Source: a virus. Taken from it: DNA of 22,587 bases. The notes below the pieces were generated by a model. That model was not told the origin of the DNA, did not search any database, and was given only the letters and a program-made list of their open reading frames with translations. The DNA lies in IMG/VR virus record IMGVR_UViG_3300027754_003625, positions 1-22,587 of that record; one strand, 5' to 3'. This document shows, in pieces, positions 2,639-22,587 of this stretch (the first letter of the stretch is position 1; each line of letters begins with the position of its first letter). The translations under genes were made by a program, and so were the position numbers.

Positions 2639-3314
2639 TGTCGTTTTGTTTAAATTTCCATTTATAACCTCCAGCACTTTTTCTTTGATTATTACAAACC
2701 ATTCTGATTGTGTTTCGATTTATTAATAAATACTCGGAAACTTCCTTTAATGATTTCCATTCTTTTAATATGTTACCATCTAACGAATATTGGATAACTG
2801 GTTTATATTTAGATTCAATACAGTACTTGGATTGTTTTTTACCAAACATAGAATTATTTTTGCCTTTTCTTTTTTCGGATAACAATTTTCTACCCTCATC
2901 AGACATTTTTCTTTTTTTTGCCGATTCGCTCATTAATTTTATCGTTTTACTACTAAAAACTCTATTTTTTAATTTTTGAGAAATTAACTTATTAACCTCA
3001 TCTCCAAAATTACCTCCATCCCCACCATCTGTTAAATTTGTTAATTTACACCCAAGTTTTTTATAATGAGAAATCCATTTTTTTTCAGAATCACTCCATT
3101 CATTTTTTTCAACAATATCAATAATTTCCATGATTGGTAGGTTTCCTGATTTAAGTAGACCATTAATCCAATTATTTTTATAGGTGTTTTTGTATTTAGA
3201 CTTACGAATATGTTCCGTTAATCTATTATTTGGGTCATCTGATTTACCAATGTATTTAATATCTAAAGTTATTGGGTCCTTTAATAAATAAATAAAAGTT
3301 ACTGTATTATTCAT
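2628..3314 (-). CDS. GIY-YIG homing endonuclease, free-standing, with NUMOD domains
   Basis: A 228-residue protein. The GIY-YIG nuclease domain is at the N-terminus: FIYLL at about residues 7-11 and KYIG at 20-23, followed by the Arg of NNRLTEHIRKSK. The middle has an NUMOD3-like motif (GKNNSMFGKKQS), and the C-terminus has an NUMOD1-like DNA-binding helix-turn-helix (PVIQYSLDGNILKEW, then SEYLLINRNTIRMVC). Such enzymes cut intron-less or gene-less alleles and spread themselves. It sits between two head genes, and its last 11 nt overlap the protease start, so it has been fitted tightly into the operon. The frame opens upstream at a TTG (3329), but the ATG at 3314 follows an ATATTTATT motif by 13 nt and gives the usual N-terminus for the domain. 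Confidence 0.92.
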   Translation of the reverse strand: MNNTVTFIYLLKDPITLDIKYIGKSDDPNNRLTEHIRKSKYKNTYKNNWINGLLKSGNLPIMEIIDIVEKNEWSDSEKKWISHYKKLGCKLTNLTDGGDGGNFGDEVNKLISQKLKNRVFSSKTIKLMSESAKKRKMSDEGRKLLSEKRKGKNNSMFGKKQSKYCIESKYKPVIQYSLDGNILKEWKSLKEVSEYLLINRNTIRMVCNNQRKSAGGYKWKFKQNDNVY

Positions 3315-18175: not shown

Positions 18176-19579
18176 TTAAACCCTTTTTCGGAAATTCAAT
18201 ATTTTATTTTCAAATAATTCAGGATTATGTAGGAAATCTTGGAATTCCTCAAGAGTATAACTTCTTGGTTCACCTTTACCATTTCTTATCTTATAGTAAG
18301 TTAAAAATATTTTATTAGTTAATGGGTCTAATTTTGTAACTTTAAATCCTTCATTATTATCCCCTCTTTTTAAACCATAATATCTATTTAAATCGTATTG
18401 TGATAAAACTTTATCAATTATTTCTCTAAATTTAGTTAGATTTGGATACTTATTACTATCCTCAATTTCTTCTAATATTTTTTCTAATTCATACTTTGCG
18501 TTTCTATTAACAGAATCGATATCTAAATTTCCACTACCATACTCGTACATAGAGTCCTCATAAGGACCTACCGACAATGTATGGCCAATCGTTGATAACA
18601 TCTCTGTTAAGTCCACATGTCTTTCTTTTGAAATATTATACATTGCCAATAAGACATTAACGGTTGTTACATATGAGTAGAAACACCCTGACTTGTTAAA
18701 TAACCCGTAATTTTGAAATGGGTCACATAAATCTTCTCGTATTTCCTCCTCAGCCGCTTCTTGCATTGCGGAATCTTTTTCATGAGAGTAGTCATCAATA
18801 ATGTTGTCAATTTGTCTATTAAAAGCGTCTCTCAATAATTCTGAAGCATCCTTATATTGGTCGTCATCCTTAAGTTCTGCAATGTCAGGTTTAATATAAA
18901 TTAAGATTTGTTTAATTATCTCAATGTTTTCCTCATTAAGCTCCTGCATTAAATAACCCTCATCCCAATCTTGATATCCCATATCACTTTGGTAAAACAT
19001 TGAGTCGTAATGGTATGATGAACTAAATAACGATTTTAAAAACCATATATCCCCCTCACCTAAATCAAATAATTTAAAATAGTCCTCATAGTCGTCAAAT
19101 TTAAGTGTAATCATACTTTTACCAGGAGTGTTCTTGTTAAATTTGAATCCCCCAATTAATCCATCAATATCAGATAACTTATATACATCAATTTCTTCCC
19201 CACCACTAATTCTCTTTAATGCCCCATAAATGTTACTAACACCAATCAAGTCGTAAATTTTGTCAGTAATCTCAGGAAATTTATCAAGAATATCAGTAAT
19301 TGTTAAACTATTGTTGTCATAACCAATATATTCAATTAATCCTTGATGTGGTTTGTGAATTAAATACGATAATGTCGGAGTAAGATAATCACCTTCTTTA
19401 TCAACAATAATATAATTATCGGCATCAAGATATCTTTTATAATATTTAGAAAAAAATGGAGGCCCAAAATATTTTGCGGACTCCAAAGTGTTACATTTTA
19501 ATAACATAACCTTATCATCTTCATAGAAGATTTGACTACCGTCATAAGCTTCGTTTTTGTTTTCCTCTGTCTCTGCCAT
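18176..19579 (-). CDS. Uncharacterised large acidic protein (467 aa)
   Basis: Not recognised. It is an acidic, Tyr-rich globular-looking protein (KYYKRYLDADNYIIVDKEGDYL near the N-terminus, DYEDYFKLFDLGEGDIWFLK in the middle, a long acidic helix at KDSAMQEAAEEEIREDL, and a C-terminal segment EGFKVTKLDPLTNKIFLTYYKI). No catalytic motif, signal peptide or membrane helix is seen. The frame extends 22 codons further to a TTG at 19645, which would run through the tmRNA promoter. The first ATG at 19579 is preferred, directly preceded by an AT-rich stretch (GATATAAAT). The extension (KFSKYLFDIN) reads plausibly as protein, so the start is not settled. The peptidase gene follows after 9 nt. Confidence 0.75.
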   Translation of the reverse strand: MAETEENKNEAYDGSQIFYEDDKVMLLKCNTLESAKYFGPPFFSKYYKRYLDADNYIIVDKEGDYLTPTLSYLIHKPHQGLIEYIGYDNNSLTITDILDKFPEITDKIYDLIGVSNIYGALKRISGGEEIDVYKLSDIDGLIGGFKFNKNTPGKSMITLKFDDYEDYFKLFDLGEGDIWFLKSLFSSSYHYDSMFYQSDMGYQDWDEGYLMQELNEENIEIIKQILIYIKPDIAELKDDDQYKDASELLRDAFNRQIDNIIDDYSHEKDSAMQEAAEEEIREDLCDPFQNYGLFNKSGCFYSYVTTVNVLLAMYNISKERHVDLTEMLSTIGHTLSVGPYEDSMYEYGSGNLDIDSVNRNAKYELEKILEEIEDSNKYPNLTKFREIIDKVLSQYDLNRYYGLKRGDNNEGFKVTKLDPLTNKIFLTYYKIRNGKGEPRSYTLEEFQDFLHNPELFENKILNFRKRV

Positions 19580-19606
19580 ATTTATATCAAATAAATACTT
19601 TGAAAA

Positions 19607-19637
19607 TTTGTTATCGTCAGATTTATTCGTATATTTG
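19607..19637 (+). promoter_or_regulatory. Host-type (Bacteroidota) promoter of the tmRNA gene
   Basis: TTTG at 19607-19610, a 19-nt spacer, and TATATTTG at 19630-19637 match the Bacteroidota consensus TTTG / TAnnTTTG exactly. Transcription would start near 19644, about 19 nt before the mature tmRNA 5' end. Confidence 0.8.
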
Positions 19638-19647
19638 TAAAACAATA

Positions 19648-19658
19648 GTTCTTTAACA
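19648..19658 (+). promoter_or_regulatory. boxA-like antitermination element in the tmRNA leader
   Basis: GTTCTTTAACA in the leader, close to the E. coli rRNA boxA (TGCTCTTTAACA). Comparable GTTCTTTGAA sites follow two promoters in the 22-kb region. Role inferred. Confidence 0.55.
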
Positions 19659-19662
19659 TCAT

Positions 19663-20078
19663 GGGGGTAAATTGGAATTGACTGGCATAGTTGGTTGTTC
19701 GGGGCATGTCAAGGCTGAGCTAACCTTGTAAAACTGGTTTAAATCGATACACGGCAACGTTATCAACAAACTTTCTGCAGTAGGATTAATCCGCACTGAA
19801 GAAAATGTTTCAGTAGCCTAAGGCGAAAAAAACAACGGGTAGATAGACCTATACCTAGGAACAGAACGGTCTTCATGGTGTGACATCTACCATAAAAGAT
19901 GTAAACTCTATCCAATCAGAGGATAATCAGATGGCAGAGGATAAGTTCTCAGTAAACCGAACTGTATAATAAGGGAACTGTGGGATTTCGGATTGTTAGA
20001 TTAAACAATGACCTAAACATGTAGTCCTTAATAATCGTTATGAACAACTACGAGGGTTCGAGTCCCTCTATCTCCGCA
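19663..20078 (+). ncRNA. ssrA: tmRNA (ssrA), transfer-messenger RNA
   Basis: About 415 nt, with tmRNA hallmarks. Its 7-bp acceptor GGGGGTA (19663-19669) pairs with TATCTCC (20069-20075), two pairs being G-U. The D-like start is GGAATTGACTGG. Helix 2 pairs GGTTGTTC (19693-19700) with GAACAACT (20042-20049). The 3' domain has ACCTAAACATGTAGT, matching the conserved tmRNA ACTAAGCATGTAGT, and a T arm GAGGG-TTCGAGT-CCCTC. A full CCA is not encoded (ends GCA). tmRNA rescues stalled ribosomes and appends a degradation tag. The tag frame is ambiguous: a 22-codon frame from GGC at 19753 begins GNVINK and ends ENVSVA before TAA (19819-19821); a GCA frame from 19754 gives ATLSTNFLQ before TAG at 19781. 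Hairpin 19773-19803 may be helix 5. Confidence 0.93.
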
Positions 20079-20086
20079 TTTAACAT

Positions 20087-20134
20087 TTTTGTTCTTTTAC
20101 TATATTTTGAAATATTTATAGTAAAAGAACAAAA
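20087..20134 (+). promoter_or_regulatory. 18-bp inverted repeat enclosing an ATATTTATA motif before the GIY-YIG remnant
   Basis: TTTTGTTCTTTTACTATA (20087-20104) is an exact inverted repeat of 20117-20134; the loop is 12 nt. The right arm ends in the A of the remnant's ATG, and the candidate promoter motif lies across the loop and right arm. No T-run follows, so it is not a classical terminator. Long transcripts from the tmRNA promoter would form the hairpin and hide the start codon; transcripts starting at the motif would not. Confidence 0.7.
20112..20120 (+). promoter_or_regulatory. ATATTTATA motif upstream of the GIY-YIG remnant
   Basis: AAATATTTATAGTAAAA on the plus strand, 13 nt before the ATG at 20134. 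The motif follows gene orientation here too, although the strand is opposite to most other copies. Confidence 0.5.
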
Positions 20135-20232
20135 TGCCAAGAAAAAAACCTAATTTCCACTATATCTATAAAACCATTTGTAATTTTAATCAAAAATACT
20201 ATATCGGAATGCACAGCACATCTAATTTATAG
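20134..20232 (+). pseudogene. Truncated GIY-YIG homing endonuclease remnant
   Basis: A 32-codon frame beginning MPRKKPNFHYIYKTIC and continuing to YYIGMHSTSNL before TAG. This is the N-terminus of a GIY-YIG nuclease of the SegA/SegE-like phage group (HYIYKTxC ... YYIGMHSTxNL). After the stop the sequence GATGGGTGGGTTAGAGG still resembles the next expected residues (D-G-W), then runs into a terminator, so the rest of the enzyme has been lost. The remaining fragment keeps the GIY-YIG half-motifs but not the catalytic Arg or Glu, so it should be inactive as a nuclease. It lies about 55 nt after the tmRNA gene, which was probably its past target or neighbour. It could still be expressed as a short peptide. 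Confidence 0.85.
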
Positions 20233-20276
20233 GATGGGTGGGTTAGAGGTAGAAATGTTGGTATAATCAAATAAAT

Positions 20277-20308
20277 AAAAAACCCCATCCTAATAAGGTG
20301 GGGTTTTT
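20277..20308. terminator. Bidirectional terminator
   Basis: Stem AACCCCA / TGGGGTT (plus inner CCT/AGG) followed by T7 on the plus strand; the minus-strand copy also ends in a T-rich run. It ends the tmRNA/remnant transcript and the minus-strand membrane protein gene, whose stop is at 20312. Confidence 0.88.
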
Positions 20309-20311
20309 TTG

Positions 20312-20611
20312 TTAGGATTTAAATCCCTCAATGATTTGTAATAGTTTGTCAGCTCGTTTGTCAGTATGACTTTTAGATTCTTGATGAAGTTCATTGATAC
20401 GTCTATAGATGTGGTCAACAGTAACGTCTAACTCACGTTTATTTTCGTCTAAAATTCTTTGGTCGTAATCAACATCTCTTTCATAAGATATTCTGAAATC
20501 TTCCAAATCTTTTTTTGTTCTAACAACCTTAACTAACCCCCAAACAAGAGCAACAATAAAAATTATTGCAATAATCGAAAGGACACCTAAAGTAAAATAA
20601 AATGTTTCCAT
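20312..20611 (-). CDS. Small single-pass membrane protein with a coiled-coil tail (99 aa)
   Basis: Not assigned to a family. From the ATG at 20611 the protein reads METFYFTLGVLSIIAIIFIVALVWGL, one strong transmembrane helix with a short N-terminal segment. It is then followed by KVVRTKKDLEDFR and a charged helix (ISYERDVDYDQRILDENKREL, VDHIYRRINELHQESKSHTDKRADKLLQIIEGF) predicted to be coiled coil. This resembles small phage proteins that sit in the inner membrane with a cytoplasmic rod, including some superinfection or spanin-like proteins, but no motif decides. The frame extends 10 codons upstream to a TTG, but that extension is not needed. It is flanked by terminators and therefore is probably a single-gene unit with its own promoter, none of which was clearly recognised. 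Confidence 0.72.
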   Translation of the reverse strand: METFYFTLGVLSIIAIIFIVALVWGLVKVVRTKKDLEDFRISYERDVDYDQRILDENKRELDVTVDHIYRRINELHQESKSHTDKRADKLLQIIEGFKS

Positions 20612-20680
20612 TATTTTAAGATTTTGTTTTTTATACCTCAAGGGTAATAAAATATAATGGAGAGTGTAGAAAAAGGAAAT

Positions 20681-20723
20681 AAAAAAAAGGGAGATAATGA
20701 TGGCTAGTCAAAATCTCCCTTTT
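20681..20723 (-). terminator. Strong terminator ending the RNA-gene transcript
   Basis: Perfect 11-bp stem AAAAGGGAGAT / ATCTCCCTTTT with a 17-nt loop, followed on the minus strand by T8. It is the natural end of the transcript that starts at the promoters near 22.1-22.5 kb and includes the tRNA. Confidence 0.9.
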
Positions 20724-21110
20724 AGCCTAAACATTGTCACTCGGTAAGTTCAACCCGAGGTAGTGATTAGTGAAACCTCTACCTAACTTCTATCGTGAGT
20801 TGTGATTGGTGTACAACCTAAACGTTTGTATGTTTATTTCCCTTTATTAATTTTAAGACTTAAAGGGAACGTGGTTATAACAAAATCCACATCCTATAAA
20901 AAAAGTCCTGACAATTTTTACCACTATATCACCTCAGGTTGTCGTGTCAAAGACAGATTGGTACTTATTACTTTTTATATTTTCTATGAGGTAGAATCGT
21001 GAAGTCACAAGATAAAACAAACACGCAAAGACCCAAATCATTATGTTTTCCTTCAGTTTAAACTCGTGGTGGGTGTTATGATTTAAAAAAACACGTACGG
21101 AGTCACTTAG
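20724..21110 (-). other. 387-nt tail between tRNA-Met and the terminator, no protein gene seen
   Basis: No convincing open frame on either strand. On the minus strand it contains several hairpins: TTCCCTTT/AAAGGGAA, CTCGG/CCGAG near the 3' end, and a weak CCTGA/TCAGG stem followed by T7 at about 20898-20938 that may act as an early terminator. It may be part of a further structured RNA or just the 3' trailer of the tRNA transcript. Confidence 0.5.
20898..20938 (-). terminator. Possible weak terminator after tRNA-Met
   Basis: CCTGA / TCAGG stem with a long loop, then ACTTTTTTTAT on the minus strand, about 180 nt after the tRNA. Stem is only 5 bp. Confidence 0.3.
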
Positions 21111-21183
21111 TTGCGGGAGAAGGATTCGAACCTCCGACCTAAAGGTTATGAGCCTTTCGAGCTACCAACTGCTCTATCCCACT
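21111..21183 (-). tRNA. tRNA-Met (anticodon CAT)
   Basis: Read on the minus strand the 73-nt sequence folds as a tRNA. The acceptor is AGTGGGA with TCCCGCA and discriminator A. The D arm is GAGC/GCTC with loop AGTTGGTA, the anticodon arm is AAAGG-CTCATAA-CCTTT, and the T arm is GGAGG-TTCGAAT-CCTTC. The anticodon CAT fits Met, or Ile2 if C34 is modified to lysidine. The acceptor has an unpaired 1-72 (A-A) and a G-U-type pair at 3-70. An unpaired 1-72 is a feature of initiator tRNA, but the anticodon stem lacks the three G-C pairs of initiators. CCA is not encoded. It directly follows the candidate large RNA; RNase P cleavage at its 5' end would also set that RNA's 3' end. Confidence 0.9.
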
Positions 21184-22067
21184 ATATTTGGCTATAAATA
21201 AGGCTGAGATTACACCTGTTTATGAGAAACTTTAGTAGGATTATTGATTCCCCACATATCCACTTCCTTTTGAGAAGTATTCCTCAGTGACGATTGGTTA
21301 GACCAATCACTTCTTGAGATATCAGTTACTCTCTTATTACTTAACTCTCTTCGAAGATGCCTCTCCGACTCTTCCTTATGGGAATAGAGGTTTTTGGTAA
21401 GAATACAGTCAGACTTGCGGTCTTCATGTGCAATGAACGGCTCATTACTATGTAGTCACCTTTCACTGATACCTAACGGACACTTTTGCTTATTTTTAGT
21501 TAATTTTACTTAATTTAGTATAAGTTACGTGTTGTGGATGAATCAAAGTAGCGGTCCGTTGAAGGATTCGTTCTCTTTTGGAAAACGAAATACCAAACTA
21601 CTCCGTGAGATGTCCCCATCTCCATATTTTAAGATTACTTCGTACCAAGACTTTGGTAAGTCTTTGATAAGGACAGTAGCGACACCACTCGTTCTCTATC
21701 TTACCTTTCGGTTTTAAGTCCCCTCTTATATTGGTAACCGCAATCATGTAGTTGGAGACCACATTTTTTGCTTGATACCTATGGGTTATTCTTATTGGAG
21801 TTCCCTCCTCAGACTGACAATCCACATTGCCGTTCCACCCAACCACTTTCCCTAAAGCGTTGCCCTCAGTACTAAAGGTCGGATGATATCCCACTTGTGT
21901 ACTCGACCTCGGTTTCCCAAGACGCGAACCTACTAACACTTGAAGATTCACTTTATCCCACTTTCGTGGTTTATTTAACGACCATACACGGCCGATTATC
22001 TTTTTTCAGTTATCTCAGAATCAACCCGAAGGTCTCATCATAAACATCCTGATGGATAATACAATAA

Positions 22068-22077
22068 TTCAAAGAAC
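22068..22077 (-). promoter_or_regulatory. boxA-like element in the large-RNA leader
   Basis: GTTCTTTGAA on the minus strand, just after the 5' hairpin, as boxA follows boxB in rRNA leaders. Identical to 22381-22390. Confidence 0.55.
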
Positions 22078-22079
22078 AT

Positions 22080-22095
22080 ATCGGACGTTTCCGAT
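22080..22095 (-). promoter_or_regulatory. 5' leader hairpin (boxB-like position)
   Basis: Perfect ATCGGA-AACG-TCCGAT stem loop at the very start of the predicted transcript, directly before boxA. Confidence 0.6.
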
Positions 22096-22104
22096 TTTGT
22101 TTTA

Positions 22105-22135
22105 CAAAGATAGTAAACTTTTTTGATTTACCAAA
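22105..22135 (-). promoter_or_regulatory. Host-type promoter P1 for the large RNA
   Basis: Minus strand TTTG (22132-22135), 19-nt spacer, TATCTTTG (22105-22112): a full Bacteroidota consensus match. Start predicted near 22098. Confidence 0.82.
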
Positions 22136-22210
22136 TCTTTTTTTGTTTTTTTTTGACAACCTTACTCTATAACTACCGATAGTGAGATTTGTTTTCGGTG
22201 ATTGTCAAAT
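22136..22210 (-). other. Short leader region of P2, structured
   Basis: Between P2 and P1 on the minus strand, ending in an A-rich tract. TTGACAA pairs with TTGTCAA across about 45 nt, enclosing ACTA-TCGG-TAGT. No boxA and no T-run. Could be a small RNA or an upstream leader for the large RNA. Confidence 0.4.
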
Positions 22211-22216
22211 GTTTTA

Positions 22217-22248
22217 CAAAGATAAGACATTTTTTTCAATCTGTCAAA
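22217..22248 (-). promoter_or_regulatory. Host-type promoter P2
   Basis: Minus strand TTTG (22245-22248), 20-nt spacer, TATCTTTG (22217-22224). Full consensus. Confidence 0.78.
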
Positions 22249-22410
22249 TCTTTTTATGGTTATTATAACTGATGCGGTAACATATTTCATTTACACTTTA
22301 AATGCGAAGGAGTCCCGTAGTCACTTTCCTCACATACAACAGTAGCCCTACGGACCTAGACTGTTTCTATAACCAATTTCTTCAAAGAACTAAATCAGAC
22401 GTTCCCGATT
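22249..22410 (-). ncRNA. Candidate small structured RNA from promoter P3
   Basis: About 160 nt on the minus strand between P3 and P2. After the hairpin and boxA, GTCCGTAG pairs with CTACGGGAC (one G bulged), enclosing GGCTACTGTTGTATGTGAGGAAAGTGA. No start codon with a useful frame was found. It could equally be the 5' part of one long transcript reading through P2 and P1. Confidence 0.5.
22381..22390 (-). promoter_or_regulatory. boxA-like element in the P3 leader
   Basis: GTTCTTTGAA on the minus strand, same placement as in the P1 leader. Confidence 0.55.
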
Positions 22411-22411
22411 T
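22392..22411 (-). promoter_or_regulatory. 5' leader hairpin of the P3 transcript
   Basis: AAATCGG pairs with TCTGATTT around GAACG. Compared with the P1 copy the stem bases differ but still pair, partly through G-U. Confidence 0.55.
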
Positions 22412-22417
22412 GTTTTA

Positions 22418-22448
22418 CAAAGATAGTAAACTTTTTTGATTTACCAAA
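22418..22448 (-). promoter_or_regulatory. Host-type promoter P3
   Basis: Minus strand TTTG (22445-22448), 19-nt spacer, TATCTTTG (22418-22425). Confidence 0.82.
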
Positions 22449-22498
22449 TTTTTTTTTGTTTTTTTTTAAAAGAACTTTTTTAAATAAAAAAGGTATTG

Positions 22499-22507
22499 TA
22501 TAAATAT
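22499..22507 (-). promoter_or_regulatory. ATATTTATA motif inside the promoter array
   Basis: GATATTTATAC on the minus strand between P4 and P3, with no start codon following. The only clear motif copy here not next to an open frame; it could give late expression of the RNA region. Confidence 0.35.
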
Positions 22508-22530
22508 CACCACTTCTTTCAAATGTTTTA

Positions 22531-22560
22531 CAAAGGTAATAAAAAATTTTTATCTGACAA
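22531..22560 (-). promoter_or_regulatory. Host-type promoter P4
   Basis: Minus strand TTG (22558-22560), 19-nt spacer, TACCTTTG (22531-22538). The -33 box is CTTG rather than TTTG, so somewhat weaker. No boxA follows at the usual place; a looser GTTCTTTTAAA lies further on, near 22465-22475. Confidence 0.6.
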
Positions 22561-22587
22561 GACCTGTAGGTTATTTTTTTATAAAAA

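Follow-up and report, generated by a model that had tools for sequence, protein, structure and literature searches.

How do phages make and fold near-kilobase RNAs without translation, and what does the class of such RNAs known as GOLLD do? Both open questions bear on a locus in a 22.6-kb IMG/VR fragment of 22,587 nucleotides (the window), whose minus strand carries an RNA gene some 900 nt long between a promoter (22135-22105) and a tRNA-Met gene (21183-21110). The window encodes a portal, a terminase large subunit, a prohead protease and a ClpB-like ATPase, and its source is a T4-like phage. A Bacteroidota host is plausible, judging from the promoter type, the boxA type and the terminase, whose better relatives include some from Flavobacterium phages at about 27% identity. 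The features of the locus are collected in Table 1.

Table 1. Features at and around the RNA gene, with positions in the window and the basis of each assignment.
Feature	Position	Strand	Basis
Phage tmRNA	19663..20079	+	Rfam, 71.9 bits; missed by ARAGORN
Probable intrinsic terminator for the GOLLD-tRNA unit, AGGGAGAT...ATCTCCCT followed by a run of T	20684..20720	-	Visual reading; its loop exceeds the length that the scanner accepts, and the scanner did not report it
tRNA-Met (CAT)	21110..21183	-	Starts 17 nt after the GOLLD Rfam 3' end (21201)
GOLLD 3' domain	21201..21605	-	Full-length match to Rfam RF02032
GOLLD 5' domain, beyond the Rfam model	21606..22067	-	25-sequence alignment
boxA, GTTCTTTGAA	22068..22077	-	Match to Bacteroidota 16S leaders; GOLLD clusters
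Leader hairpin ATCGGA-AACG-TCCGAT, 6 bp, directly 5' of boxA (boxB-like position)	22080..22095	-	Covariation
GOLLD promoter, Bacteroidota type: TTTG (22135-22132), 19 nt, TATCTTTG (22112-22105)	22105..22135	-	Sequence reading; duplicated upstream
Unlisted small structured RNA, outer stem GGTTAT/ATAACC, ends approximate	22258..22374	-	Conservation
Second boxA, GTTCTTTGAA	22381..22390	-	Exact copy
Duplicated leader hairpin ATCGGG-AACG-TCTGAT, pairing kept through G-U	22394..22409	-	Sequence reading
Duplicated promoter of the upstream small RNA	22418..22448	-	66-nt direct repeat, 94%

The preliminary description had read 21184-22098 as a structured RNA devoid of a protein gene. The sole sizeable open reading frame on the RNA strand (21598-21951, 117 aa) is broken by stops in 24 of 24 aligned homologues, mostly within 40 codons, which rules out a protein gene there and bears that reading out. 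Protein-type conservation was absent and covariation was present. The more balanced base composition that had been claimed was also recovered, with a G+C of 0.39-0.42 in the RNA region as compared with about 0.25-0.40, mostly near 0.32, in the rest of the window. Hairpins with GNRA or UUCG loops on stems of 4 bp or more were enriched as described (five seen versus 0.87 expected in shuffles), although the count of six given earlier fell to five. The promoter with a leader hairpin at the start and the tRNA at the end were both found where they had been placed. Overlooked were the GTTCTTTGAA motif (22077-22068) and a duplication of promoter, hairpin and motif 313 nt upstream.

Earlier, the RNA had been proposed to belong to GOLLD, to ROOL or to a new class. 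An Rfam search with the models of both classes returned GOLLD (RF02032) with 322.1 bits against a gathering score of 150 and an E value of about 1e-91, covering model positions 1-416 of 416. ROOL, which like GOLLD is a giant cage-forming phage RNA often found near tRNAs, had no match at the gathering score in the whole window, nor at E up to 1 in 19500-22587, and was thereby ruled out. Judged by the Rfam match, the RNA is a member of the known class GOLLD. Besides the 3'-domain score, it has the other features of the class, namely an extra structured 5' domain, a length of about 900 nt (over 800 nt), a phage location and a tRNA nearby. Self-assembly into a 14-mer cage by kissing loops and A-minor contacts is a feature of GOLLD, and a cage is seen in the cryo-EM structure of GOLLD env-38 (PMC12286853). 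The window RNA and env-38 are alike in a full-length 3' domain, a total of about 900 nt, a more variable 5' domain and a phage genome; env-38 is located downstream of a Met-tRNA, and the window GOLLD also has an adjacent tRNA-Met. A cage-like role of the window RNA would fit the published structure (PMC12286853).

The Rfam model covers the 3' domain only and ends at 21605, leaving the other roughly 500 nt unmodelled. Additional GOLLD loci were gathered from viral contigs by 3'-domain patterns only (GCAAAAGT-N-GAAAGGTGACTA and TNGNCTAACNANNCGTCACTGA), with the leader ignored, and from phage records, among them LR745206.1, GOLLD being confirmed by Rfam in these records; a scan of genome contigs with a GOLLD pattern gave no match. 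Leader and 5' domain from 25 phage loci were aligned without prior fitting to any structure. In this alignment, whose columns include the leader, RNAalifold predicted 101 consensus pairs, and compensatory changes were seen at 71 of these. The 635-kb phage LR745206.1 has the 5' domain too (70.6% over 208 nt), and the domain is also recognisable by eye in Acinetobacter phages.

The promoter was typed against the Bacteroidota consensus, and transcription is expected to start near 22098. Its -7 box TANNTTTG recurs in most homologous GOLLD leaders. The leader hairpin is conserved as a structure: among 13 distinct leaders, 94.9% of cells were paired as compared with 64.1% in shuffles, with the limit that the 16-mers were hand-picked and set in register around the hairpin, which favours structure, but slid versions dropped to 17-50% pairing. 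Double changes occurred at all six pairs, and the covariation score was reached by none of 500 shuffles.

Directly after the hairpin, 28 nt past the -7 box and inside the leader of the untranslated transcript, stands GTTCTTTGAA. Its general form GTTCTTT[GA]A was found 540-720 nt before the 3'-domain anchor, a zone of 180 nt, in 28 of the 30 sequence clusters formed by the 68 GOLLD loci that have 760 nt or more of upstream sequence. The two clusters lacking it are L083, which has GTTCTTAGAA, and LR756502.1, which has none. Altogether 84 copies of GTTCTTTGAA occur in 1.55 Mb (both strands), 65 of them in the leader zone, where the background expectation is about 0.008 copies per 180-nt zone. In a few cases (L016, L058) the copy stands ahead of a small reading frame, which counts against an antitermination reading. 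In the dialects searched, no boxA was found at GOLLD of Acinetobacter, Streptococcus and Mycobacterium phages or of LR756502.1. The absence of these dialects from the GOLLD of those three phage groups rules boxA out as a general GOLLD feature and makes the leader a lineage-specific mode of expressing GOLLD.

What kind of element is this 10-mer? Since 16S starts were absent from the viral contigs, Bacteroidota 16S leaders were taken from plasmid-borne rRNA operons. In the leaders of Segatella copri and S. hominis, GAGTTCTTTGAAAGATT is preceded by a hairpin and a TAnnTTTG-type promoter (TANNTTTG-type); those of Aureibacter and Persicobacter carry AAAGTTCTTTGAATGAATG. GTTCTTTGAA is identical in the 16S leaders of Segatella, Aureibacter and Persicobacter; the Flammeovirga leader has a variant of the motif only. 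By this identity, GTTCTTTGAA is boxA of the rrn antitermination system. In the rrn leader (boxB-boxA-boxC; NusA, NusB, NusE, NusG, SuhB, S4) the promoter of a long untranslated RNA is closely followed by a hairpin and then boxA. The window shares this arrangement, and its 10-mer is that of Bacteroidota 16S leaders, but the RNA that it transcribes is a phage RNA.

A second case comes from phage DSS3_MAL1, whose host, Ruegeria, was deduced from the phage name (Ruegeria DSS-3). Its GOLLD (160.5 bits) lies within a tRNA-GOLLD-tmRNA array that opens with a sigma-70-like promoter and GCTCTTTGACAATTTGG, which contains GCTCTTTGACA. The 16S leader of Ruegeria TM1040 reads GCTCTTTGACATTGTTGG and shares GCTCTTTGACA with the array start; the leader of Sulfitobacter, a relative of Ruegeria, has no exact copy of the motif. 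In DSS3_MAL1 some 1.5 kb separate the motif from the GOLLD 3' domain. A motif that varies with the presumed host and stands this far from GOLLD argues against a fixed piece of the GOLLD fold. The same locus (L089 2570-3033) has a tRNA-Arg (2629-2704) inside the GOLLD 3' domain match and the tmRNA directly after GOLLD.

NusB-S10 on boxA, together with NusA, NusG, SuhB and S4, forms a complex with RNA polymerase that blocks Rho-dependent termination and aids rRNA folding (PMC10931766). As cited in PMC7862264, Stringer et al. found boxA upstream of CRISPR arrays, and in Legionella a long CRISPR array given a boxA (GTTCTTTAAAA) made about 10-fold more precursor crRNA (PMC7862264). Like GOLLD, such arrays give a long non-coding, non-rRNA transcript, the one from a host defence locus and the other a phage giant RNA. 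Because a 900-nt untranslated RNA would be exposed to Rho and would need ordered folding, we infer antitermination for GOLLD as well. The window thus holds a GOLLD some 900 nt long from a T4-like phage, whose host is probably a member of the Bacteroidota, and the boxA leader of this GOLLD probably recruits the host rRNA antitermination complex.

The proposed course of events is as follows. A host-type promoter of its own would transcribe GOLLD, and the hairpin and boxA would emerge as the first structured part, as in the host rRNA leader. NusB and S10 (NusE) would bind boxA and, with NusA, NusG and SuhB, convert RNA polymerase to the processive rRNA form. Rho would thereby be prevented from terminating the untranslated RNA, whose co-transcriptional folding could also be helped. 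RNase P, in cutting the 5' end of tRNA-Met, would release GOLLD at its 3' end, and the freed RNA may assemble into cages, as published for env-38.

The leader may be read in two other ways. According to the first, which we consider unlikely, the promoter is simply strong, and the hairpin and boxA serve only in stabilisation or processing of the 5' end, say as an RNase III site or a stability hairpin, with termination unaffected. Transcripts are commonly stabilised by a 5' hairpin near their start, and the upstream unit has the whole promoter-hairpin-boxA cassette, as expected if a promoter cassette had been copied. This reading leaves the near-invariant 10-mer and its match to rRNA leaders unexplained, however, and in L077, L080 and L002 boxA follows a tRNA at a distance of 24-28 nt instead of opening a transcript. 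In these three loci the tRNA-Met is upstream of GOLLD with boxA in between, whereas the window has its tRNA-Met downstream.

The second, the main rival but likewise unlikely, is that GTTCTTTGAA forms the 5' strand of a helix closing the GOLLD 5' domain (CUUUG with CGAAG, which lies where that domain ends) and resembles boxA by coincidence. RNAalifold does predict the five pairs (columns 52-56 with 599-603), most of them kept in 23 to 25 of 25 sequences and one showing A-U in L017 where others have G-C or G-U, so that structure may account for part of the conservation. But GTT on the 5' side of the helix and AA on its 3' side vary no more than the helix does, the partner strand changes without compensation (column 603, two sequences) while boxA stays fixed, the motif also leads non-GOLLD RNAs, DSS3_MAL1 has its host-type variant far from GOLLD, and the motif exactly matches host-type rRNA leaders. 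The helix and the antitermination reading could also be true in sequence, if boxA were bound during transcription and then paired with CGAAG.

At the other end of the gene, the tRNA directly past GOLLD suggests that RNase P cleavage would define the GOLLD 3' end. A tRNA also starts about 10 nt after GOLLD in Acinetobacter phages, LR756502.1 and Streptococcus phage Javan636. As a general rule, a 3' tRNA was ruled out, being present within 800 nt downstream at only about 20 of some 80 GOLLD loci and upstream in some; most boxA-led GOLLD loci have no tRNA in the 800 nt downstream. The tmRNA of the window is convergent with the GOLLD-tRNA unit, and a tmRNA opposite the GOLLD strand is also found in L075, L076 and L083.

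The duplicated cassette, 313 nt upstream of the GOLLD copy (66-nt direct repeat, 94%), leads a small RNA with the core GTCCGTAG...GTGAGGAAAGTGACTACGGGAC...CCTTCGCATTTAAAGTGTAAATG. This RNA is kept in 18 viral loci, nearly all GOLLD-adjacent and boxA-led. It had no Rfam match, and a relationship to RNase P RNA (GAGGAAAG) was thus unsupported. A second unlisted small RNA (GGAGGTCTGGTGTGAACCYGAC...GTCRGTAGCAT) lies beside boxA near GOLLD in L017, L097 and L098.

In relatives, two tRNA-like genes in permuted order stand ahead of GOLLD (L083, revcomp 2940-3230; L105, L106 and L107; also L108-L130). In these genes the T-arm half comes before the D-arm half, and the ends pair as an extended anticodon stem. 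Both were missed by ARAGORN in native order and gave full cloverleafs once rotated. The first type was seen in 27 contigs, which give 13 distinct sequences; nearly all have a boxA-like motif immediately ahead of the gene, and its end helix is found in two compensated versions, GTGGGTGT/ACACCCAC and GTGGACGT/ACGTCCAC. U33 was not evident at the joined ends, which suggests that the permuted gene may be a tRNA mimic and not a decoding tRNA. Our literature search found no report of permuted tRNA genes in phages. The occurrence of boxA or a boxA-like motif before other small RNAs and tRNA-like genes suggests that, in these phages, boxA is a mark of transcription units for stable RNAs.

As far as the GOLLD papers examined go, which do not mention it, the boxA-plus-hairpin leader sets the window GOLLD apart from env-38. 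No paper linking GOLLD with boxA or describing the leader was found in a literature search that did not extend to key reviews, and it is not certain that such a leader at phage GOLLD genes is new.

A conserved antitermination signal of the host-rRNA kind, placed where the gene begins, offers a concrete, testable route for GOLLD synthesis, and boxA at GOLLD would add a non-rRNA use besides CRISPR arrays. The clustering of GOLLD, tRNAs and small RNAs would be explained as well, in that the clusters would be stable-RNA operons. Promoter, hairpin and boxA together may serve as a marker for further structured phage RNAs; here they led to the small RNA and the permuted tRNA-like genes. More broadly, and here we lean only slightly in favour, the giant GOLLD, the small RNAs and the tRNA-like RNAs of many phages, probably of Bacteroidota, may be rRNA mimics, in which a hairpin and a host-type boxA would recruit the host complex for rRNA transcription and folding, so that the ribosome-assembly line would build RNA cages.
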